Below the pieces are notes generated by a model that did not search any database, was not told the DNA's origin, and worked only from the letters and a program-made list of their open reading frames with translations. This document shows, in pieces, positions 3,985 to 52,116 of a stretch of DNA of 60,664 bases. Position 1 is the first letter of the stretch. Every line of letters starts with the position of its first letter. The DNA comes from Methanomicrobia archaeon (GTDB lineage Archaea > Halobacteriota > Syntropharchaeia > Alkanophagales > Methanospirareceae): positions 1-60,664 of the forward strand of contig JAFGHB010000025.1 of the NCBI GenBank assembly GCA_016930255.1, in the 5' to 3' direction. The translations under genes and the position numbers were made by a program.

Positions 3985-4725
3985 ATGACACAAAAGAGGA
4001 GCGAAAACATAGATTATAAAGTGGCGATCGTGCTTATCCTCGTAGCAGTAACTATCATTTCCACCCTTTACTATGCCACACATCGTGAAATCACCGATCC
4101 GCAGGTCTTAATCGCGAAAACGGTCGAGGCCTCTGAGGACATAGCAACCTATCGATTCGCTCTCTCTACTAGCCTCTCAATGCCGGAAGGCAGTGTCAAG
4201 ATGATGAGCAGCACGGGATCTGTCGATTATCCAAATAAGAAGATGCGGACAACGGTGACGGCGATGAATCGCTCACTGGAGATGATCATTATCGGTGATA
4301 CGACGTACGTACGAGAATCGTACGGCTCGTGGCAGACGCAGAACGTGAGCGATTATTCCCGCTCTCTCTGGGAAAGCGACCAGCTGGTGCAGCAACGCTC
4401 ACTCTTGCAAAATGCCACGAACGTCACGATGCAAACGGAAGAAACAGGGTGGGTATTGGATGTTATCCCGGATCATAAGGAAGTGATCGCGCAGATGAAA
4501 CGCAGCGGTATGGAAACGATCAAAGATGACGAGCTGATCGATTTTACGATCACCTATTGGATTGCGCGGGATACCTACTGGATAACGAAAATAGAGAACA
4601 GAATAGCGCTCGAGATGAATATTCAGGGATTGATGACGCCGATACAATTGAATAATTCCGTGTCGTTCTACGATTATAATACGGCAATGATAATAGAAGC
4701 GCCTGCACCATTTATTGATTTTTGA
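3985..4725 (+). CDS. Membrane-anchored extracellular protein, LolA/LppX-like fold suspected
   Basis: A 246-residue protein with a short basic N-terminus and one hydrophobic segment (about residues 12-30), followed by an entirely extracellular domain with several N-x-S/T sites. The pattern of long beta-strands separated by short turns, with 'ATYRFALS' early and paired 'YWI' strands late, resembles LppX/LolA-type lipid-binding or DUF6612-like lipoproteins; no lipobox cysteine is visible, so the N-terminal helix would be the anchor. It follows the large surface protein by 84 bases on the same strand. The fold assignment is an impression from the pattern, not a match; the function is unknown. Confidence 0.7.
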   Translation: MTQKRSENIDYKVAIVLILVAVTIISTLYYATHREITDPQVLIAKTVEASEDIATYRFALSTSLSMPEGSVKMMSSTGSVDYPNKKMRTTVTAMNRSLEMIIIGDTTYVRESYGSWQTQNVSDYSRSLWESDQLVQQRSLLQNATNVTMQTEETGWVLDVIPDHKEVIAQMKRSGMETIKDDELIDFTITYWIARDTYWITKIENRIALEMNIQGLMTPIQLNNSVSFYDYNTAMIIEAPAPFIDF

Positions 4726-12604: not shown

Positions 12605-13222
12605 TTATAGCCACCCTTCGACCCACCTACCCATGTCTTTTCTATCTTCTTCGATGAACGGTAAATTTATATAATGCTGTAGTGATGTTAGCGTAGTATG
12701 GCCTTGGGAGAGATAAACTAAATTTGTTGCCTCAGGATAATAGAATATCAACCAGCTCTCGTACGTCTTCCGCAAACTTCTTGCGGATATGCCAGCAGGA
12801 TTTAGCCCGCCTCGCTCAGCCCATACAAGTAGGGAATAATCCCACGCCTGGATGGAAGGCAGACGTTTCTTGCTCTCAAAGAAATAGGGCAAAATTGCTT
12901 TACCCATCGAACTCAAGCGAATCCACCGCTCTATCTGCCTTCGCTTTACCTTCTTCTGGGCCTCTGAAGGAAGATGTATGAAATTACCGTCGAACCACCG
13001 GGGATTGTTCTGAATAGTCTGGCATTCCTTATACCGTGCCCCCAGCAATAAACAGCCGTCCAGGAGGGTTTTATTCTCAGTCTTCTTCGCGCCTTCTCGT
13101 AACAGTTCGAATTCCGAGGGCCGTAATATCCGCGTTTTTACCTTTTTACCCTTCAATATCGGGATCTTCTCAGCCATGTGTATCAGTACCACCCATGCAT
13201 CGAGAACCTTATCAGTAGGCAT
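12605..13222 (-). CDS. Tyrosine recombinase (phage-type integrase), catalytic domain
   Basis: 205 residues with the tyrosine recombinase catalytic pattern: Arg63 in 'GARYKECQ', basic residues around 91-97, Arg151 in 'SARSLRKTYESW' (the usual HxxR with Ser instead of His), His175 in 'SQGHTTLTS' and the nucleophile Tyr184 in 'LQHYINL'. It would cut and join DNA at attachment sites. The N-terminal core-binding domain is short or missing. In-frame codons continue upstream of the ATG at 13222 back to a stop near 13261 and still look coding ('TIEVDDAIKLS'), and a different frame holds a plausible N-terminus (13249-13308), so the gene is probably frameshifted. It lies downstream of a ribbon-helix-helix gene on the same strand. 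Confidence 0.75.
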   Translation of the reverse strand: MPTDKVLDAWVVLIHMAEKIPILKGKKVKTRILRPSEFELLREGAKKTENKTLLDGCLLLGARYKECQTIQNNPRWFDGNFIHLPSEAQKKVKRRQIERWIRLSSMGKAILPYFFESKKRLPSIQAWDYSLLVWAERGGLNPAGISARSLRKTYESWLIFYYPEATNLVYLSQGHTTLTSLQHYINLPFIEEDRKDMGRWVEGWL

Positions 13223-43396: not shown

Positions 43397-44224
43397 ATGT
43401 TAGAGCGATTGGACTCGATATACGAGAACGACAGCTTCGAAATAAAGGAGGAGCCGTTTTACTTACCGCAAGGTAATGAGATCGAACTGTTTGAAGCCGC
43501 GCATGAGAACAAACTACCCGTTATGCTGAAGGGGCCTACAGGCAGTGGTAAGACGAGATTGATTGAGTATATGGCCTGGAAGCTGGGTCGACCGCTCTAT
43601 ACAGTTGCCTGTCATGACGGGTTAAGCGGCAACGACTTAACGGGTCGGTATATCATCAAAGGTGACGAAGTCGAGTGGATTGATGGCCCGCTCCTTATGG
43701 CGATCAAGAATGGCGGAATCGTTTATTTGGACGAGATCGTGGAAGCGCGAAAGGACACCACGGTTGTCATTCACCCCTTGACCGATTACCGACGATATTT
43801 GCTGGTTGAGAAACTCGGGAAGATATTCTATGCTCCCGATGATTTCATGCTGGTCATCAGCTATAATCCCACGTACCAGAGCATTTTAAAAGAGTTGAAA
43901 CCGAGCACGCGACAGCGGTTTGTCAGTATCAATTTCGGCTGGCCGAATGAGGACCTGGAAACGCAGATAGTGCAACAAGAGACGGGTATTGAAGAAGAGA
44001 CCGCGAGAAGGCTGGTAAAAGCGGCGAATAAGATACGAAATCTCGTTCAACAAGGGCTCGAAGAAGGCGCTTCCACCCGGGAGCTTGTCTATGCTGGCAC
44101 CTTGCTCAAGAGTGGCGTGCCCATGCGTGATGCGCTCCATTCAACCTTAATAGAGCCGTTAACGCACGATAGCGATCTAAAGAGGAGCATAGAAGAGATT
44201 CTCAAAAATTACTTTACTCTGTGA
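43397..44224 (+). CDS. MoxR/CbbQ/NirQ-type AAA+ ATPase
   Basis: 275 residues. Walker A 'GPTGSGKT' at 46-53, Walker B 'IVYLDEI' at 108-114, sensor region 'VISYNPTYQ' and 'ELKPSTRQRFVSINFGWP' place it in the CbbQ/NorQ group of MoxR ATPases. These hexameric ATPases work with a VWA partner to remodel or insert metal centres, as in Rubisco activation (CbbQ-CbbO) or NO reductase maturation (NorQ-NorD). The next gene encodes exactly such a VWA partner, overlapping by four bases (GTGA), so they are translationally coupled. Confidence 0.93.
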   Translation: MLERLDSIYENDSFEIKEEPFYLPQGNEIELFEAAHENKLPVMLKGPTGSGKTRLIEYMAWKLGRPLYTVACHDGLSGNDLTGRYIIKGDEVEWIDGPLLMAIKNGGIVYLDEIVEARKDTTVVIHPLTDYRRYLLVEKLGKIFYAPDDFMLVISYNPTYQSILKELKPSTRQRFVSINFGWPNEDLETQIVQQETGIEEETARRLVKAANKIRNLVQQGLEEGASTRELVYAGTLLKSGVPMRDALHSTLIEPLTHDSDLKRSIEEILKNYFTL

Positions 44225-47200
44225 TCGGTCGGTCGGTTAAATCATTGAGGGTTGTTCTGAAAATGGCGGGGAACTCAATCAAGAGGATCCGTGGAGAGCG
44301 AAGAATAAAGAACCTACTGAGGGATGATTACGAAGGTGCAGTGCTCGAGCGACTCGTGAGTGACCTGTATCCATTACTTGATAGCATTGGTCTTGATGGC
44401 CTGGAAGAGGTCGCGGGCCTTCGTAATCAGATCGCCAGGTATAGCGGGAAGACCGCTGTACGGGTGCTTGATGAGAGTCCAGAGCTCGTTGCGCGATTAC
44501 TAACGTACGGTGATAAGAACCTGGTGATGGCGGTTTATGGGCTCTGTCGTCAGGTCGCCCGGGATACTATATTCGTCGCTGCCCGGTTGCTTGATGAGAG
44601 CCCGGATATCGTTGAACGATTGCTCATGCAGGGCGATAAAGAACGGGTGATGAGGGTTTACGGGCTTTGTTCCGAGATCGCCAAAGATAGCTGGCGAATT
44701 GGCGCTCGACTGTTAAGCATGAGCCCGGATCTCATTGATAGCGTTGGATATGAGACTTTGGAGAAAATTGCGGGCCTTTGCAGTCAGGTTGCACAGGATC
44801 ATCCTGCAGTTGCCGCGCGGTTGCTTGAGCTGAGTCCGGAACTCCTTGCCAAAGTCGGGTACGAAGGTTTCGAAGAGGTTGCGGGTCTTGCTCGTCAGAT
44901 CGCCTGGGAGCATCGTGAAGTTGCCGTTAGTTTGATCGAGATGAGTCCGGAACTCCTTGATCGTGTTGGGTATGAGAATCTGGAGAAGATCGCGGCACTG
45001 AGCAGCCGTGTTGCCGCGTATAGCTGGAAAACGGCCGCGCAACTGCTTGGAACGAGTCCGGAGCTTATTGATCGTGTGGGTTATGAATATCTAGAGCGCG
45101 TAGCGGATTTCAGCATTCAGGTCGCCCAGAAGGACAGTTTCGTTGCCGCGCGGTTGCTTGAGCTGAGTCCTCATCTTATCGATAGCGTCGGTTATGATTG
45201 CCTGGCGAAGATTGCGGATCTGAGCAGGCTGGTCAACGAGGATGATGGTTTTATTGCTGCCAAATTACTTGATGATAGCCCTGATCTGATTACGAGATTG
45301 CTACGGTACGGCGATGATAAGGAGTTAGTTACGGGTGTTTACGATCTCTGCTGCCAGGTTGCCGAGGATTATAATTGGAGAACGGCTGTTCGGTTACTGA
45401 CTGAAAGTCCTGACCTCTTCAAGCGATTGCACGAATACGGCGATAAAGAGTTAGTGAAGGCCGTTTTCGGCCTTTGCACTCCGGTGGCTGGGTATAGTGG
45501 GATTACCGCGGTCAGTTTGCTTGAGGAGAGCCCAACCCTCATTGGCCAGGTAGGCATTGACGGTTTTGAGAAGGTCGCAGCCGAAGCTACTGAGCTGGCA
45601 ACGCTGGGCGAAGGAAGAGCAACGTCGTTCGTGCGGGGCGAGTCGTCGGAATTCGCCGCGTTTATCGAGGCACATACGCAGGGGCTCGAACTGAGGAAAG
45701 TAAAGCCCATTCTGGCACATTATCTGAACGCGTTATTGGGCTACCGGATCGAGCTTGCGGAAGCTGAGGAGCCTTCAACCGACGGCATGCGGATCTTTCT
45801 GCCGGAACGGATTCAGGAGTTCAAGGAGGAGGGGAGAAACTTCACGCTGTATAAGGTTATGGCGACGCACGAAGAAGCCCATCTGGAATACGGCAGCTTC
45901 GATTTCGAGCTTATGAATGTTCCGGACGTTGCCGGAAGCATAAGAGCGAGATATGGTAGTGAGCGTGCACAACTGAATGGGACAAGCGAGCTGGAACAGT
46001 TTTATGAACTCTTTCCAGAGCCCGCGTTAGCAAAGGACCTCATCACCGTGCTCGAGGATTATCGGATTAATTCGCGGCTGCACGCGGAATACCCGGTTCT
46101 TGGCGAGCAGATAGCGGCTATGAACGCGCATATGGTTTCGAAACGGCCTTTGCTCGAGGATTTAGCTACGGATAAGCAACGAGCGGTAGAACTCATAGCA
46201 CAGCGACTCATTGCAGGTAGAACGAAAGAGCACGTTCCAGAGCATTTAGAAGAAACACTTGAGCGCGCGCTCACGATAAGCCACAAGTTATCCGCTCCGC
46301 ATGTCGATATCCACGAGACTGCACGAGTTGCTGCTGACGTCTATTTCCAGATAGATGACTCGTTTCAGGAGCCGTATCAGCCAGTACCCCCGTTTTCATC
46401 TCCGTTAGATCAATCGCACGTCGACCAGAACGTCGGCAATTTCGGCAGGACCGCGCGAAAGATACAGGAAAAATTAGACGGTCACGATAGCCAGAATGCG
46501 CCGGATAGCACCCAACCGCAGCCCTTAAAACAGTCGCAGCTGTCGACTGAGGAGCAGCGCGTTTCCGAGGATACCTTAAAAACGCTGCTACGAACGCTGT
46601 TCAAGGAGAAAGGAATCAAGCCCATAGAGGTCGAGTCGCGAATTGAGGCGCTCGAGCCGAGCGAAGTGAAGGTTTATTTGAGCGATCTGGAGACGGTAAT
46701 TCGGGATGAGAACGGGCTTCAGCGCGAGCACGGTACCTTTCTGTATCACGAGTGGGGCAGTGACATTAGCGATTATCGCCCGAACTGGACGCGTGTGCGG
46801 GAACGGCGGTTGGAGGGTGGCTCGAATGCATTTTATCAGAGCACGTTTGGGAAGTACAAGGGCCTGATAAAGAGCATTCGACGCGAGTTCCAGATGCTGC
46901 GGCCTGAGGGTCTGGTGAAACTGCGGGAGCAATTTGACGGGAATGACATCGACCTCGATGCCGCGGTACAGTATTTCATTGATAAACGGCTGAGGCTCTC
47001 GCCGTCCGAGCGGAACTATATGCGAACGGAGAAGAGGTCGCGCGACATCGCCGTGGCGTTCCTCGTTGACGTGAGCGGGAGCACGGGCGGCGCGACGATC
47101 GCGTGTGAGAAAGAGGCGTTGATCGTGATGTCGGAAGCCCTGGAGGAACTGGGCGATGCGTTCGCCATCTACGGCTTCTCGGGCTATGGCCGCGATAACG

Positions 47201-47601
47201 TGTTCTTTTACACCATTAAGGACTTCGAGGACACGTACGATCGGCGGGTGCAAACCAAGATCTCGATCCTGACGAACGAGCAATCGACACGGATCGCGCC
47301 GGCGATCAGGCACACGACGACGAAGTTGAAAGGTCGAGAGGAGAATACGAAACTGATTATTCTGCTGAGCGATGGTAAGCCGCTCGATCACGATTATCAC
47401 GGCGATTACGCGATCGAGGATACGCGCATGGCGTTGCGGGAAGCGCAGCGATACGGGATCAAGTCGTTCTGCATTACCGTGGATCGCGAAGCGGCGGCGT
47501 ATCTGCCGCGCATGTACGCGAACAGCCGCTGGGTCGTGATCGATGACGTGCTGAAGCTGCCGAATAAGATCACGCGGATCTACAAGCTGTTTACGACGTG
47601 A
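44221..47601 (+). CDS. CbbO/NorD-like VWA protein with N-terminal helical repeats
   Basis: 1126 residues. Residues about 35-430 consist of some ten to twelve degenerate repeats of about 30-38 residues, e.g. 'GYETLEKIAGLCSQVAQ' then 'AARLLELSPELL', forming a HEAT-like solenoid. The middle holds CbbO/NorD-type sequence ('TLYKVMATHEEAHLEYGSFD', 'EDYRINSRLHAEYPVL'). The C-terminal VWA domain has the MIDAS 'DVSGSTGG' at about 950 and 'LSDGKPLDHDYHGDYAIEDT'-type block (core 'DYHGDYAIEDTRMAL'). MIDAS-bound metal would contact the MoxR partner or client. GTG 44221 overlaps the ATPase stop; ATG 44263 is an alternative. The extended repeat array is the unusual part. Confidence 0.9.
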   Translation: MIGRSVKSLRVVLKMAGNSIKRIRGERRIKNLLRDDYEGAVLERLVSDLYPLLDSIGLDGLEEVAGLRNQIARYSGKTAVRVLDESPELVARLLTYGDKNLVMAVYGLCRQVARDTIFVAARLLDESPDIVERLLMQGDKERVMRVYGLCSEIAKDSWRIGARLLSMSPDLIDSVGYETLEKIAGLCSQVAQDHPAVAARLLELSPELLAKVGYEGFEEVAGLARQIAWEHREVAVSLIEMSPELLDRVGYENLEKIAALSSRVAAYSWKTAAQLLGTSPELIDRVGYEYLERVADFSIQVAQKDSFVAARLLELSPHLIDSVGYDCLAKIADLSRLVNEDDGFIAAKLLDDSPDLITRLLRYGDDKELVTGVYDLCCQVAEDYNWRTAVRLLTESPDLFKRLHEYGDKELVKAVFGLCTPVAGYSGITAVSLLEESPTLIGQVGIDGFEKVAAEATELATLGEGRATSFVRGESSEFAAFIEAHTQGLELRKVKPILAHYLNALLGYRIELAEAEEPSTDGMRIFLPERIQEFKEEGRNFTLYKVMATHEEAHLEYGSFDFELMNVPDVAGSIRARYGSERAQLNGTSELEQFYELFPEPALAKDLITVLEDYRINSRLHAEYPVLGEQIAAMNAHMVSKRPLLEDLATDKQRAVELIAQRLIAGRTKEHVPEHLEETLERALTISHKLSAPHVDIHETARVAADVYFQIDDSFQEPYQPVPPFSSPLDQSHVDQNVGNFGRTARKIQEKLDGHDSQNAPDSTQPQPLKQSQLSTEEQRVSEDTLKTLLRTLFKEKGIKPIEVESRIEALEPSEVKVYLSDLETVIRDENGLQREHGTFLYHEWGSDISDYRPNWTRVRERRLEGGSNAFYQSTFGKYKGLIKSIRREFQMLRPEGLVKLREQFDGNDIDLDAAVQYFIDKRLRLSPSERNYMRTEKRSRDIAVAFLVDVSGSTGGATIACEKEALIVMSEALEELGDAFAIYGFSGYGRDNVFFYTIKDFEDTYDRRVQTKISILTNEQSTRIAPAIRHTTTKLKGREENTKLIILLSDGKPLDHDYHGDYAIEDTRMALREAQRYGIKSFCITVDREAAAYLPRMYANSRWVVIDDVLKLPNKITRIYKLFTT

Positions 47602-47602
47602 G
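47568..47602 (+). repeat. 35-bp direct repeat, copy 1 (3' end of the VWA gene)
   Basis: GATCACGCGGATCTACAAGC followed by 15 more bases to position 47602 is identical to 49003-49037. It encodes the last residues 'ITRIYKLFTT' plus the TGA stop. Sequences flanking the two copies differ immediately outside the 35 bases. Confidence 0.93.
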
Positions 47603-47688
47603 GGCTGGCATATTATACCCGGGGGCACAAGCTATAACTACCCTGATATGTAATAAGATAAAGGTAAGCTAAAAAGGCGGTAACCAGC

Positions 47689-47847
47689 TTGGTTGAGCAA
47701 GAGCATGCATGGACGATGGTAAAAAATATGAAGGGATTGGAAATCAAGGGGATAGGTGGTTCATCCAGAGGGATGTATATCCGCAATATTGCGGATATAC
47801 CGGAGTTATACGCAATCACTGGCTTTGGCTTTGGTGAAGGCATATAG
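47689..47847 (+). other. Small open frame or gene remnant containing the 26-bp palindrome
   Basis: A frame open from 47668 to the TAG at 47847, with TTG 47689 or ATG 47716 as possible starts, reads 'EQEHAWTMVKNMKGLEIKGI' and 'RGMYIRNIADIPELYAITGF'. It is less AT-rich than the gene after it. No family recognised; either a small protein or the end of a lost gene. Confidence 0.35.
47776..47801. repeat. Perfect 26-bp palindrome
   Basis: GTATATCCGCAAT is followed without spacer by its exact reverse complement. It lies 170 bases downstream of the VWA gene within the repeat-bounded insert, and inside a small open frame. A perfect palindrome of this length is a candidate protein-binding or recombination site. 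Confidence 0.9.
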
Positions 47848-47868
47848 ATTCCTCTTAACATAGTTATT

Positions 47869-48738
47869 ATGAAAAAGATTTACATATTTTTTTATCTCGT
47901 TTTTCTCGAATTGAAGAGAATTGTTTTTGGAGTTAAGTATTTTGCCGAAGTTGATGTGACAGATAACTGTAACCTCAGGTGTAAACATTGCTATCATTTT
48001 TTTGGTAAAGACGATTTCAAAACAAAGGAATTGCCTCTTGAAGTCTGGAAAAAAAGATTCGACGAGCTTCACAAAAAAGGTGTAAGATTTATTCTTTTAG
48101 TTGGTGGAGAACCTGCGCTTAGGAATGATGTTCTTATGCTCGCAGATAAGATTTTTCCTTTCATTTATGTTACCACAAACGGGACAATAAAGATACCAAA
48201 AGAATTTAATCATCGATTGTTTGTTTCCTTGGATGGTACGCAGGAAAGAAACGATTCAATCAGAGGAAAAGGTGTTTTTTCAAAGGTAATGAAAAATTAT
48301 TCGGGTGATAAACGTGTTGTTATCAATATGACAATAACAAAGGATAATTACAAAGAACTCGGAGATGTTGTCAAGATAGCAAAAGAAAATTATTTCCGTG
48401 GTGTTGTTTGCAATATTTATACCCCTACTATAGGTGAAAGAAATCACTTATTTATAGAAAAAGAAAAAAGAAAGCTAATCATTAATGAATTAAAACGAGT
48501 AAAATCAGAATATCCTAATCATTTTCTCTTGACTAAATCAATGATAAAATGGTATGAATTTCCAAATCATGTTGGATTTTGTCACTGGGGCGATGAAGTA
48601 TTACATTTTGATGTTTCATGGAACAAAAGGAGGTGCTTTGCAAATGCGGACTGTTCCAATTGTGGGTGTCTCGCAGGTTCCGTTCAAAATCCTCTTAAAT
48701 TGTTAAGATATCCACTAGTGGGTGTGAAATTGATATAA
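47869..48738 (+). CDS. AT-rich radical SAM enzyme with C-terminal Cys cluster (SPASM-like)
   Basis: 289 residues, markedly AT-rich compared with the genes on both sides. The N-terminal 23 residues are hydrophobic/basic ('IYIFFYLVFLELKRIVFGVK'), then 'VDVTDNCNLRCKHCYHFFG' holds the CxxxCxxC cluster motif, 'LLVGGEPALRNDVLML' the GGEP motif, and 'LFVSLDGTQERNDSIRGKG' a typical strand-4 motif. C-terminal cysteines ('GFCHWG', 'CFANADCSNCGCLAG') resemble an auxiliary cluster site of SPASM-type peptide- or lipid-modifying enzymes. No precursor peptide gene is obvious. It lies between two direct repeats and is likely acquired. Confidence 0.85.
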   Translation: MKKIYIFFYLVFLELKRIVFGVKYFAEVDVTDNCNLRCKHCYHFFGKDDFKTKELPLEVWKKRFDELHKKGVRFILLVGGEPALRNDVLMLADKIFPFIYVTTNGTIKIPKEFNHRLFVSLDGTQERNDSIRGKGVFSKVMKNYSGDKRVVINMTITKDNYKELGDVVKIAKENYFRGVVCNIYTPTIGERNHLFIEKEKRKLIINELKRVKSEYPNHFLLTKSMIKWYEFPNHVGFCHWGDEVLHFDVSWNKRRCFANADCSNCGCLAGSVQNPLKLLRYPLVGVKLI

Positions 48739-48799
48739 TATGAAGAACGATAATAAATGCCTCAGCCAGCGACTACGGCACAAGCAAGCGTGCCTGCGT

Positions 48800-48896
48800 A
48801 TAACAAGCGGTTATCAGGTTTCGCTCCACTTCTTAGAGTGTCGCTTCCCCCATATTTTGAGCAAACTCAAAACATCTGATAACCCAATGTTATCAG
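48800..48896. repeat. Three-copy alternative hairpin (GTTATCAG / CTGATAAC / GTTATCAG)
   Basis: GTTATCAG at 48810-48817 and 48889-48896 and its reverse complement CTGATAAC at 48876-48883 allow two mutually exclusive stems: a long-range one (extended by G809/C884 and by ATAACA 48800-48805 with TGTTAT 48888-48893) or a local one with loop CCAAT. Inside the long loop is a perfect TTTTGAG-CAAA-CTCAAAA hairpin (48855-48872). The set lies downstream of the radical SAM gene. Confidence 0.8.
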
Positions 48897-49002
48897 AGCT
48901 TGATCCACTCGTCTAGTTTAGCATAATCTCAACGATTCAGGATTGCTTCAACCTCGCGAATCATCATCCGGAGTTGAGGCCGGCGTATTTGGCACCAGAG
49001 GG

Positions 49003-49037
49003 GATCACGCGGATCTACAAGCTGTTTACGACGTGAG
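49003..49037 (+). repeat. 35-bp direct repeat, copy 2
   Basis: Identical to 47568-47602. Here it is not part of a complete gene. The interval between the two copies (47603-49002, 1400 bases) contains the palindrome, the radical SAM gene and the alternative hairpins. Confidence 0.93.
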
Positions 49038-49170: not shown

Positions 49171-52116
49171 ATGAGCACGCCGAAGGTTTTCATCAGTTAC
49201 AGTCATGATTCCCGGGGACATGCCGACCGGGCTCTGGCGTTAGCCGATCGTCTCCGGGAGGATGGCATTGACTGCATCCTTGACCAGTATGAAGAGTCAC
49301 CGCCAGAGGGCTGGACCATGTGGATGGATCGGCACATCAAGAACGATGATTTTGTGCTGATGGTCTGCACTGAAAAGTACTATCGCCGCGTTATGGGAGA
49401 AGAAGCGCCGGGCGAAGGGCTGGGCGTGAAATGGGAAGGTAAATTGATCTATCAGCACATTTATCGTGCGGATTCGACCAACACTCGATTTATTCCAGTT
49501 TTGTTGGCTGCCGATCAGGTATCGTGTATCCCCACGCCCTTGCAGGATGCGACCTATTATCGTGGGGATACCGAAGCTGGTTATGAGACGCTGTACCAAC
49601 GCCTTACCCACCAGCCTGCAACCATCAAACCTGAACTGGGTAAATTGCGTACACTGCCGCCACGAGAACGCAAACAGGATTTTTTCCAGCCCAAAATTAT
49701 GCTCGCCAAACTCCCGACCACCGGCAAAAACCTCTTTGGTCGTGAAGACGAACTCAAGATGCTGGACGACGCCTGGATCGATCCTCACACGAATATCCTC
49801 AGCCTCGTCGCCTGGGGCGGTGTGGGCAAGACGGCGCTCGTGAACGAATGGCTGAACCAACTGGAACGAGACAATTACCGCGGCGCCGAGTGCGTTTATG
49901 GCTGGTCGTTTTACAGCCAGGGCACTCGGGAAGATAAACAGGCGTCTGCCGATACCTTCTTCGAGGATGCTCTGGCATGGTTCGGCTACGAGGGCGAACC
50001 GTTAAAATCCCCGTGGGAAAAAGGGAAAGAACTTGCGCAGTTAATCAAACAGCGCAGAGCACTCCTTGTCCTTGACGGGCTGGAGCCGCTGCAGTATCCG
50101 CCCGGAGAACAGGAAGGCGTCTTACGAGATCAAGGGTTACAGGCACTGCTCAAAGATTTGGCGCGATTTAATCCCGGGTTATGCGTAATCACCACGCGCT
50201 ATGCGATAGCGGATCTTGAACTTTTTGTTGACAAATCGACCAAAAGAATCGTGCTCGAAAATCTTTCACCGCAAGCAGGTAGAGAGCTATTGCGGGAAGC
50301 AGGCGTGACAAAAGGAACGGATAAAGAATTGGAAAGCGCCTCCATAGAATACGGAGGACATACACTGGCGCTTACTTTACTGGGCAGATATATCGCTGTT
50401 CGGTTCGGCGGTGAAATACGAGAACGTGACAAGATTAAAAAACTGACGTACGAAAAAGATAAACAGGGCAAACATGCTCGAAATGTGATGCATTCCTATG
50501 AGATCTGGTTACAGGGAAAACCAGAACTCGACCTATTGTATATCATGGGTCTGTTTGATCGTCCCGTCCCGCAGGCAGCTATTGAAGCATTGAAAAAGAA
50601 ACCCGTGATTAAAGGCTTGACCGCCAACTTGCAGCGGCTTTCGGATGAAGATTGGGATTTTACGCTCCAGCACTTGCGAGACCTGCGTCTACTTGCCGAA
50701 AAAGACGAACATCGTCCTGATATTGTGGACTGCCACCCGCTGATCCGTGAGCATTTTGGTGAAAAGCTGAAAGCTAAAAATCTAAAAGCCTGGCAGGAAG
50801 CGCATAGTCGACTGTACGACTATTACAAGAATGTGCCAGAGAAAGAATTGCCCGATACGCTGGAAGAGATGGAGCCGCTGTTTGCGGCAGTGGCGCATGG
50901 GTGTCAGGCGGGAAAACATCAAGAAACAGAAATTGAAGTGTTTTTTAATAGGATTAGAAGAAAAAATGAAGGATATACAGCACATAAACTTGGTGCTTTT
51001 GGTGCTGATTTAGCAGCCTTAGCAAATTTTTTTGAAACCCCTTGGAGTAAGCCAGCTTCCGAATTATCTGATGAAAAGAAAGCCGTTGTCCTGAGTTGGG
51101 CAGGCTTTTGTCTGCGGGCGTTAGGACGGCTGCGTGAGGCGGCGCAACCCATGCAGGCAGCTACTGAAATGGTAACCAAAAACAAAGATTGGGTAAATGC
51201 TGCATCTGGTGCAGGAACTATCAGCGAGCTCTATTTGACGATGGGTGACATGTCAAAGGCGGTAGAGTATGCCCGTCAGAGCGTGGACTTCGCCGATCGT
51301 AGCGGAGATTTGTTTCAAAGAAAAGGGGCAAGGATACGTCTCGCAAATTCATTTACTCATACGGGAGATTTATCAGATGCTTTGTCCGTGTTCTTAGAAG
51401 CAGAACAGTTGCATCGAAAAGATGAACCCAATTACCCGACTATGTATTCGATTGCGGGCTTTGAATTCTGCGATCTGCTGCTGAGCCAAGGGAAGTATCC
51501 TGAGTTGCTGGAGCGAGCGAAAAAGACGTTGGAATTGGTTACACAAGAACAGTGGCTTTTGGACATTGCGCTGGACAAACTCTCTTTGGGATGGGCGTAT
51601 TTACTGGAAATGCTGCTAGAGGATCAGCGCCCTTCGATGTCGCTCAGGGCGAAAGACTACCTGAATGCAGCGGTGGCGGGCTTGCGGGAAGCCGGAATAC
51701 AGGATCATCAACCTCGAGCCTTTTTAGCAAGAGCAACCTTGTATCGTGTCCAAAATGAAATTTCACTGGCGTGGGACGATCTGGATGAGGCACGGGAGAT
51801 TGCGGAGCGGGGTGGAATGGAGCTGTGGCTGGCGGATTATCATCTGGAGGCGGGGCGGCTGTGCCTGGAAGACAGAGAAAGGAAGACGGAGGACGCAGCA
51901 GGGCATTTGGCTGATGCGAAACGATTGGTTGAGGAAACAGGCTATCACCGGCGTGATCCCGAGGCGCTCTTGCTGGAGGCGCAGGTTTGTTTCGCTACAG
52001 GAGATAAAGGACAAGCGCGGGAGTGGTTGGAGAAAGCGAAGAAACGGTTTAAAGAGATGGGGATTCGGCAGTGGGATTTTGAGGTGGCTGAGTTAGAAGA
52101 ACAGTTGCACGGGTGA
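49171..52116 (+). CDS. SEFIR-STAND NTPase-TPR protein, immune-type sensor
   Basis: 981 residues in three parts. Residues 1-150: SEFIR (TIR-like) domain, 'VFISYSHDSRGHADRALALA', 'DGIDCILDQYEESPPEGW' and 'NDDFVLMVCTEKYYRRV'. Residues about 180-560: STAND/NB-ARC-like NTPase with 'GREDEL', Walker A 'GGVGKT' (216-221), Walker B 'ALLVLDGLEPLQY' (about 298-310), 'VITTRYAI' sensor and a winged-helix-like segment. Residues about 600-981: TPR-like helical repeats ('AVEYARQSVDFADRSGDL', 'LAWDDLDEAREIAERGG', 'ARLAD'-type returns). Such proteins bind a trigger through the repeats, oligomerise and activate the effector domain, often in antiviral defence. Whether the SEFIR part is enzymatic cannot be told. 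Confidence 0.9.
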   Translation: MSTPKVFISYSHDSRGHADRALALADRLREDGIDCILDQYEESPPEGWTMWMDRHIKNDDFVLMVCTEKYYRRVMGEEAPGEGLGVKWEGKLIYQHIYRADSTNTRFIPVLLAADQVSCIPTPLQDATYYRGDTEAGYETLYQRLTHQPATIKPELGKLRTLPPRERKQDFFQPKIMLAKLPTTGKNLFGREDELKMLDDAWIDPHTNILSLVAWGGVGKTALVNEWLNQLERDNYRGAECVYGWSFYSQGTREDKQASADTFFEDALAWFGYEGEPLKSPWEKGKELAQLIKQRRALLVLDGLEPLQYPPGEQEGVLRDQGLQALLKDLARFNPGLCVITTRYAIADLELFVDKSTKRIVLENLSPQAGRELLREAGVTKGTDKELESASIEYGGHTLALTLLGRYIAVRFGGEIRERDKIKKLTYEKDKQGKHARNVMHSYEIWLQGKPELDLLYIMGLFDRPVPQAAIEALKKKPVIKGLTANLQRLSDEDWDFTLQHLRDLRLLAEKDEHRPDIVDCHPLIREHFGEKLKAKNLKAWQEAHSRLYDYYKNVPEKELPDTLEEMEPLFAAVAHGCQAGKHQETEIEVFFNRIRRKNEGYTAHKLGAFGADLAALANFFETPWSKPASELSDEKKAVVLSWAGFCLRALGRLREAAQPMQAATEMVTKNKDWVNAASGAGTISELYLTMGDMSKAVEYARQSVDFADRSGDLFQRKGARIRLANSFTHTGDLSDALSVFLEAEQLHRKDEPNYPTMYSIAGFEFCDLLLSQGKYPELLERAKKTLELVTQEQWLLDIALDKLSLGWAYLLEMLLEDQRPSMSLRAKDYLNAAVAGLREAGIQDHQPRAFLARATLYRVQNEISLAWDDLDEAREIAERGGMELWLADYHLEAGRLCLEDRERKTEDAAGHLADAKRLVEETGYHRRDPEALLLEAQVCFATGDKGQAREWLEKAKKRFKEMGIRQWDFEVAELEEQLHG

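Follow-up and report, generated by a model that had tools for sequence, protein, structure and literature searches.

A probable stranded integron fragment at the 3' end of a VWA-domain gene in a Methanophagales (ANME-1) genome

Integrons are the textbook gene-capture machinery of bacteria. Here, we describe an insert in contig JAFGHB010000025.1 of a Methanomicrobia archaeon, analysed as one stretch of 60,664 nucleotides (60.7 kb, hereafter the window). The contig carries archaeal ribosomal-protein genes and is thus not bacterial contamination; the host genome, of the order Methanophagales (ANME-1), is 95%-complete and comprises 87 contigs. The insert is bounded by two identical 35-bp sequences, of which the first is the 3' end of a gene for a VWA-domain protein, and inside it the GC content drops from about 55% to 32%. 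It holds an attI-like site, a complete cassette, an attC site and the decayed tail of an integrase gene, parts that are associated with one another across the host's family. Very probably, it is a stranded fragment of a Methanophagales-type integron that was dropped at the 3' end of the VWA gene by a later, separate event. This integron appears to be a variant and not the textbook one, because the IntI-specific (I2) domain is absent from the integrases of relatives, and the extrahelical base presumed to be read by I2 from most of their attC stems. The parts of the fragment are as follows.

About 47647 to 47702, plus strand: decayed 3' end of an integron-type integrase gene, with in-frame stop codons; the last ~20 codons are left.
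47703 to 47810, plus strand: attI-like site, with a palindrome at 47776-47799 and the core CGGAG^TTATACGC, the G being at 47805.
47806 to 48889, plus strand: complete integron cassette of 1084 bp, from the TT of the attI core to the G of the attC R' box.
47869 to 48738, plus strand: radical SAM gene of the cassette, intact, 289 residues, with a CNLRCKHC motif and a C-terminal cysteine cluster (PF04055, E = 5.6e-14).
48796 to 48897, plus strand: attC site, with R'' at 48796-48804, L'' at 48809-48817, L' at 48876-48884 and the recombination point after G48889.
48893 to 49000, minus strand: remnant of a HicA-like toxin gene, the C-terminal 35 residues with one internal stop codon, truncated at the second copy of the 35-bp repeat.

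The palindrome TATATCCGCAATATTGCGGATATA was confirmed at 47776-47799, and a DNA search of the relatives with the insert recovered the palindrome region from dozens of loci of the same family. At many Methanophagales loci, the same palindrome and a GTT core lie directly 3' of an integrase gene. In the aligned family loci, the C-terminus of a tyrosine integrase (...HVSNKDIGKIKSPLDSLFEK) is followed by one to three palindromic repeats, by a core like CCGAAG^TTATACGCAAT, and then by sequence that is specific to the locus. This shared order is the anatomy of an integron attI, and the window matches it; the site with its GTT crossover core adjoins an integrase gene in the relatives and a decayed integrase tail in the window. 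By blastn, window positions 47647-47799 are 77% identical to locus L114 (G027:C181), a match that takes in the integrase 3' end of that locus, where positions 4012-4146 encode integrase residues 198-252. An initial annotation of this DNA had stated that no recombinase lies inside the insert; this holds for a recombinase gene, but the statement misses the decayed tail at about 47647-47702.

When a circular cassette inserts into an integron, its attC is split, and as a result the R'' box corresponds to the beginning of the cassette that carries it. The insert follows this rule: GTTATACGC, with which the cassette begins (47805), and GCGTATAAC, the R'' box of the attC (48796), are reverse complements at 9 of 9 positions. 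The rule also holds in loci L102, L110, L112, L120, L158, L184, L186 and others. The radical SAM gene is AT-rich, with a GC content of 32-36% compared with 50-58% in the flanks. Among 51 family genomes, a homologue of it (75% identical) was found only in G020, which is consistent with a mobile gene. We also considered the radical SAM protein as a maturase of ribosomally synthesised and post-translationally modified peptides, with the upstream repeat as the precursor peptide, and rejected this, the repeat being the attI. The idea of a tiny mobilisable cassette without its own recombinase, put forward in the initial annotation, holds in essence, with the correction that the unit that moves is the integron cassette 47806-48889, which ends at the attI core and the attC and not at the 35-bp repeats.

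The palindrome, the AT-rich gene and the complex hairpin that had been noticed between the repeats are all real, the folding of the attC hairpin having a z-score of -5.2. When the attC is virtually re-circularised, it folds with R and L stems, and the R'', L'', L' and R' boxes are present. A covariance model made from 14 attC sites, none of them from the window, gives a single match in the window, at 48796-48897 (39.9 bits, E = 1.1e-6). A scan of the insert against Rfam gave nothing significant. There might instead be no integron, if the hairpin were a terminator or the end of a transposon and the palindrome regulated a radical SAM gene acquired by horizontal transfer; both elements are palindromic and near an AT-rich gene. 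The covariance-model match, the complete agreement between R'' and cassette start, and the same attI after the integrase genes of relatives speak against this, as does the attC model, which finds no site in 12 other genomes of the same phylum, most of them 99% complete; such an origin is extremely improbable.

Integron cassettes of this kind pervade the order Methanophagales. At E <= 0.1, the model finds nine attC sites in the host genome, spread over seven contigs; six pass the stricter threshold of E <= 1e-3, at which attC sites are present in 44 of 59 relatives, with up to 31 per genome. The ANME-1 archaea, which are the main methane oxidisers of the sea floor, thus have a genome-wide gene-capture system.

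Several of these loci can be described individually. An array of the host genome (L310, G000:C21:17700-23752) consists of a gene for a 1504-residue Hsp70/TPR/protease-like protein, an attC, two methyltransferase-like genes and a second attC. Many attI sites of ANME-1 are preceded by just the last 30-60 codons of an integrase, often from near residue 215-222 on, which may reflect decay or a recurrent boundary. In an archaeal genome that is a single contig of 1.07 Mb, two integrase/attI units lie head to tail (L104, G047:C1, 7432-8790). The first unit is a solo integrase tail with an attI, and the second has an integrase split over two frames, its own attI, and two attC sites downstream.

Intact cognate integrases are found in the relatives; in the host genome none was found, the sole match with a long reading frame being 28% identical. 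In the loci of the genome collection where both motifs could be located, the relatives' integrases have 58-62 residues between the conserved patches, compared with 100 in IntI1. In an alignment to VchIntIA (2a3v), the query passes from residue 146 to 170 while IntI spans residues 174 to 240. The I2 domain is thus not present in these proteins. They score above the cut-off of NF040815 (223-255 bits, cut-off 220) and below that of TIGR02249, the model of integron integrases (207-237 bits, cut-off 265). In a tree with IntI1 and Xer rows, IntI1 could not be placed securely because of long branches, and a search of viral contigs for such integrases gave only distant tyrosine recombinases of 24-35% identity. 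A recombinase encoded at 12605 had been suggested earlier as an enzyme acting in trans. This minus-strand reading frame (window 12605-13222) resembles PHROG integrases (E = 3.6e-7) and has no match in Pfam or NCBIfam. At most, it represents a divergent tyrosine recombinase or a fragment of one, and it does not belong to the cognate family; with only this weak similarity, it was rejected as the trans-acting integrase.

In archaea and bacteria alike, the integrases without I2 lie directly upstream of attC arrays. Downstream of them, 41 attC hairpins in the right orientation were counted in 220 kb, compared with 6 in 389 kb upstream, and with 6 in 608 kb that are on the minus strand only. The attC model, which was trained mainly on ANME-1 sites and to which L198, L227 and L268 among the 40 loci contributed a site, finds 37 sites over 40 loci of I2-less integrases. 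The arrays obey the rule that relates R'' to the cassette start, for example in Peptococcaceae (L226) and Paenibacillus (L242). Among 51 aligned attC sites of ANME-1, ungapped pairing of the L stem is best in 45, the spacers are usually 1 and 5 nucleotides long, and gapped pairing is clearly better in only 6, the window's own site included; the attC model itself was trained on ungapped stems. A set of attC sites chosen by the R'' rule gave 16 ungapped stems, 1 bulged stem and 23 candidates without a resolved stem, some of which are chance matches on the minus strand. The extrahelical base of L'' therefore seems to be mostly missing from the attC stems of the family.

The 35-bp duplication, which the initial annotation had reported around the stop codon of the VWA gene, is borne out, and the VWA gene is intact. 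The features that concern it are the following.

44221 to 47601, plus strand: VWA-domain gene, intact, 1126 residues; its 3' end is the duplicated sequence, and a gene for a CbbQ-type AAA ATPase partner lies upstream.
47568 to 47602, plus strand: copy 1 of the 35-bp direct repeat, the 3' end of the VWA gene in situ, spanning its stop codon.
49003 to 49037, plus strand: copy 2 of the 35-bp direct repeat, identical to copy 1 and with sharp edges.
49171 to 52116, plus strand: gene for a TIR-STAND (NACHT-like)-TPR protein, the right neighbour, outside the insert; a putative defence gene.

The 35-mer GATCACGCGGATCTACAAGCTGTTTACGACGTGAG is exact at 47568-47602 and 49003-49037, and these are its sole copies in the window, even when 3 mismatches are allowed. 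The pair is the longest exact direct repeat in the window and had 0 occurrences in shuffled sequence. A comparable flanking repeat is absent at six other attC loci from the host genome, where only an unrelated 23-bp pair was seen (L311), and at other ANME-1 platforms with enough flank, so the 35-bp duplication was not made by the integron. A 37-bp repeat in L186 was considered as a general flanking repeat of integrons and rejected, since it is the shared 5' part of two cassettes.

Both ends of the insert are broken genes, the integrase tail on the left and the HicA-like tail on the right. About 105 bp separate the attC from copy 2, and on their minus strand they encode the last 35 residues of the HicA-like protein. 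This remnant is 56-64% identical to proteins of 76-81 residues encoded 3' of a UPF0150 (HicB-like) gene in relatives; the small protein itself matches no Pfam family, and it is called HicA-like because of that preceding gene. The frame upstream of copy 2 had looked coding in the initial annotation, which raised the possibility that a tandem duplication of the VWA gene had left the repeat as its scar. The region is indeed coding in origin, on the minus strand, but it is not VWA-like: upstream of the 35 bp of copy 2, the sequence shows no similarity to the VWA gene. Moreover, the two copies are identical and sharp-edged, unlike a decayed paralogue. That 35 bp of the VWA end recur downstream, and that relatives have decayed copies of the VWA C-terminus, would agree with a tandem duplication, which we nevertheless regard as highly improbable.

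The relatives were searched for copies of the VWA gene end. Decayed copies of the 3' end lie downstream of the VWA gene in two other ANME-1 genomes, G029 (~140 bp, 79%) and G066 (63 bp, 76%), with a nitroreductase-like gene in between, and lone fragments of the VWA 3' end are present in G001 and G018. These copies suggest that the VWA gene end is possibly a recurrent target, and it may have been hit repeatedly. In L137 and L145, a nitroreductase-like gene stands between the intact VWA gene and the decayed second VWA 3' end; in L138, a lone VWA end adjoins a nucleotidyltransferase-like gene. The VWA genes of the relatives have no cassette, and the right flank of the insert is common to none of them.

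The duplication resembles that of integrative elements which enter at the 3' ends of genes, in that there is a direct repeat of 35 bp and the target gene is intact. Such an element had been proposed in the initial annotation, and this likeness stands, but the insert has no recombinase gene, its ends are broken, and no empty site or attP was found. The repeats could nonetheless mark a small integrative element as its attL and attR, with the integron piece as cargo and a recombinase acting in trans. The exact repeat across the gene's 3' end, the intact VWA gene and the copies in G029 and G066 agree with this reading. However, the insert ends in a broken gene on either side and has no recombinase gene inside, and in 2.9 million viral contigs there was no VWA C-terminus, no attP-like VWA end and no att-like pattern. 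Furthermore, the VWA-end copies in G029 and G066 have decayed, the cargo there is different (nitroreductase, nucleotidyltransferase), and the two may go back to a single old event. We consider an attL/attR element unlikely.

The most plausible reading of the 35-bp duplication is a scar left when the fragment was placed at the VWA gene end. For that event, we tentatively favour a staggered break into which the fragment was captured, with fill-in, over site-specific attL/attR integration. Recombination with an older copy of the VWA end is quite unlikely, and there is a small residual chance of some other origin; these gradings of the origin of the duplication are judgements and not measurements. 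An assembly artefact, in which the 35-bp repeat joined two loci that are not linked, or two strains within one metagenome bin, would fit a host assembly as fragmented as this one and the many contigs of relatives that end near integron sites. It could explain only the outer junctions, whereas the attI, the cassette and the attC form one coherent unit that matches the family anatomy, and we give it little credence.

From the anatomy of the junctions, the history of the stranded integron fragment can be outlined as follows. A tyrosine integrase would have recognised the attI through the palindromic repeats and the GTT core, and a circular radical SAM cassette would have been captured through its folded attC, probably by an integrase without I2. 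The integrase gene would then have decayed, leaving the attI, the cassette, the attC and part of the HicA-like gene. This fragment, already broken at both ends, would have been placed at the 3' end of the VWA gene later, and the 35-bp duplication would belong to that event. The cassette remains intact, and its movement would require an integrase acting in trans. Some observations weigh against this account. The integrase of the window is a tail seen only at the DNA level, so that its lack of I2 is taken from the relatives. The spacers of the window's attC are 4 and 4 nucleotides long as opposed to the 1 and 5 usual in the family, and its L stem fits gapped pairing slightly better than ungapped pairing, so that it does not typify the family trait. 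Among the relatives, none has an empty site with this right flank, and the decayed VWA-end copies in L137 and L145 leave room for site-specific integration.

The family shares with the class 1 and Vibrio integrons, and with archaeal integrons (PMC9668308), an attI beside the integrase gene, an attC of the form R''-L''-L'-R', recombination at G^TT and an R'' that equals the start of its own cassette. It differs from them in that its integrases lack the IntI-specific domain, which Ghaly et al. (2022) reported in the archaeal IntIs and through which they detected IntI (PMC9668308). Furthermore, the L stems of its attC sites are mostly ungapped with 1/5 spacers, its attI has one to three palindromic repeats, its full-length integrases have an extra ~80-residue N-terminal stretch, and the integrase of the window is gone. 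The fragment thus resembles an integron cassette in anatomy, while its integrase would fall outside the strict IntI-defined class. Like the CALIN of IntegronFinder (PMC9024848), the window has an attC cassette without an integrase gene. Unlike a CALIN, it has one attC, below the threshold of two within 4 kb, and retains an attI together with the remains of an integrase gene; the missing integrase does have relatives, from which the domain that serves to identify IntI is absent. The XerA of archaea acts at dif in the resolution of chromosomes. The cognate integrases resemble XerA, or the 'site-specific tyrosine recombinase/integron integrase' of NF040815, in scoring above the model cut-off and in having no I2; they differ from XerA in being followed by an attI and attC arrays and in ending in an IntI-like 'SPLD' motif.

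On balance, we lean towards placing the fragment in an overlooked class of integrons, with integrases that lack I2 and attC sites mostly without the extrahelical base, which would occur in archaea (Methanophagales, Altarchaeum, GoM-Arc1) and in bacteria (Nitrospirota, Bacillota, Bacteroidota, Spirochaetota and others). Such integrases would either use a different mode of cassette recombination or be the link between Xer and IntI whose absence has been reported. The I2 domain, an additional helix, was described as necessary for cassette capture, with intermediates lacking (eLife 2020, PMC7790495). The extrahelical base of L'' was described as absolutely conserved, and recombination between two attC sites as failing without extrahelical bases (PLoS Genetics 2009, PMC2727003). 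Recombinases without a domain thought essential bear on integron evolution, and those found upstream of attC arrays that mostly lack the L'' base offer natural material for testing the origin of single-strand recombination. They may also explain arrays of Bacillota and archaea that were scored as lacking an integrase, since the usual search requires the IntI-specific domain; IntegronFinder 2 reported one complete integron and few CALIN in Firmicutes (PMC9024848). In the open-licence literature, we found no report of Methanophagales integrons or of I2-less integrases tied to attC arrays.

The N-terminal stretch of ~80 residues is seen in the full-length I2-less integrases of L103, L106 and L109-L111, where it has a GYRWHPxxKYWxxP motif and no above-threshold Pfam match. 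On a Chryseobacterium plasmid (L289, NZ_CP041688.1), an integrase without I2 is followed by a run of small co-oriented genes that are possibly cassettes.

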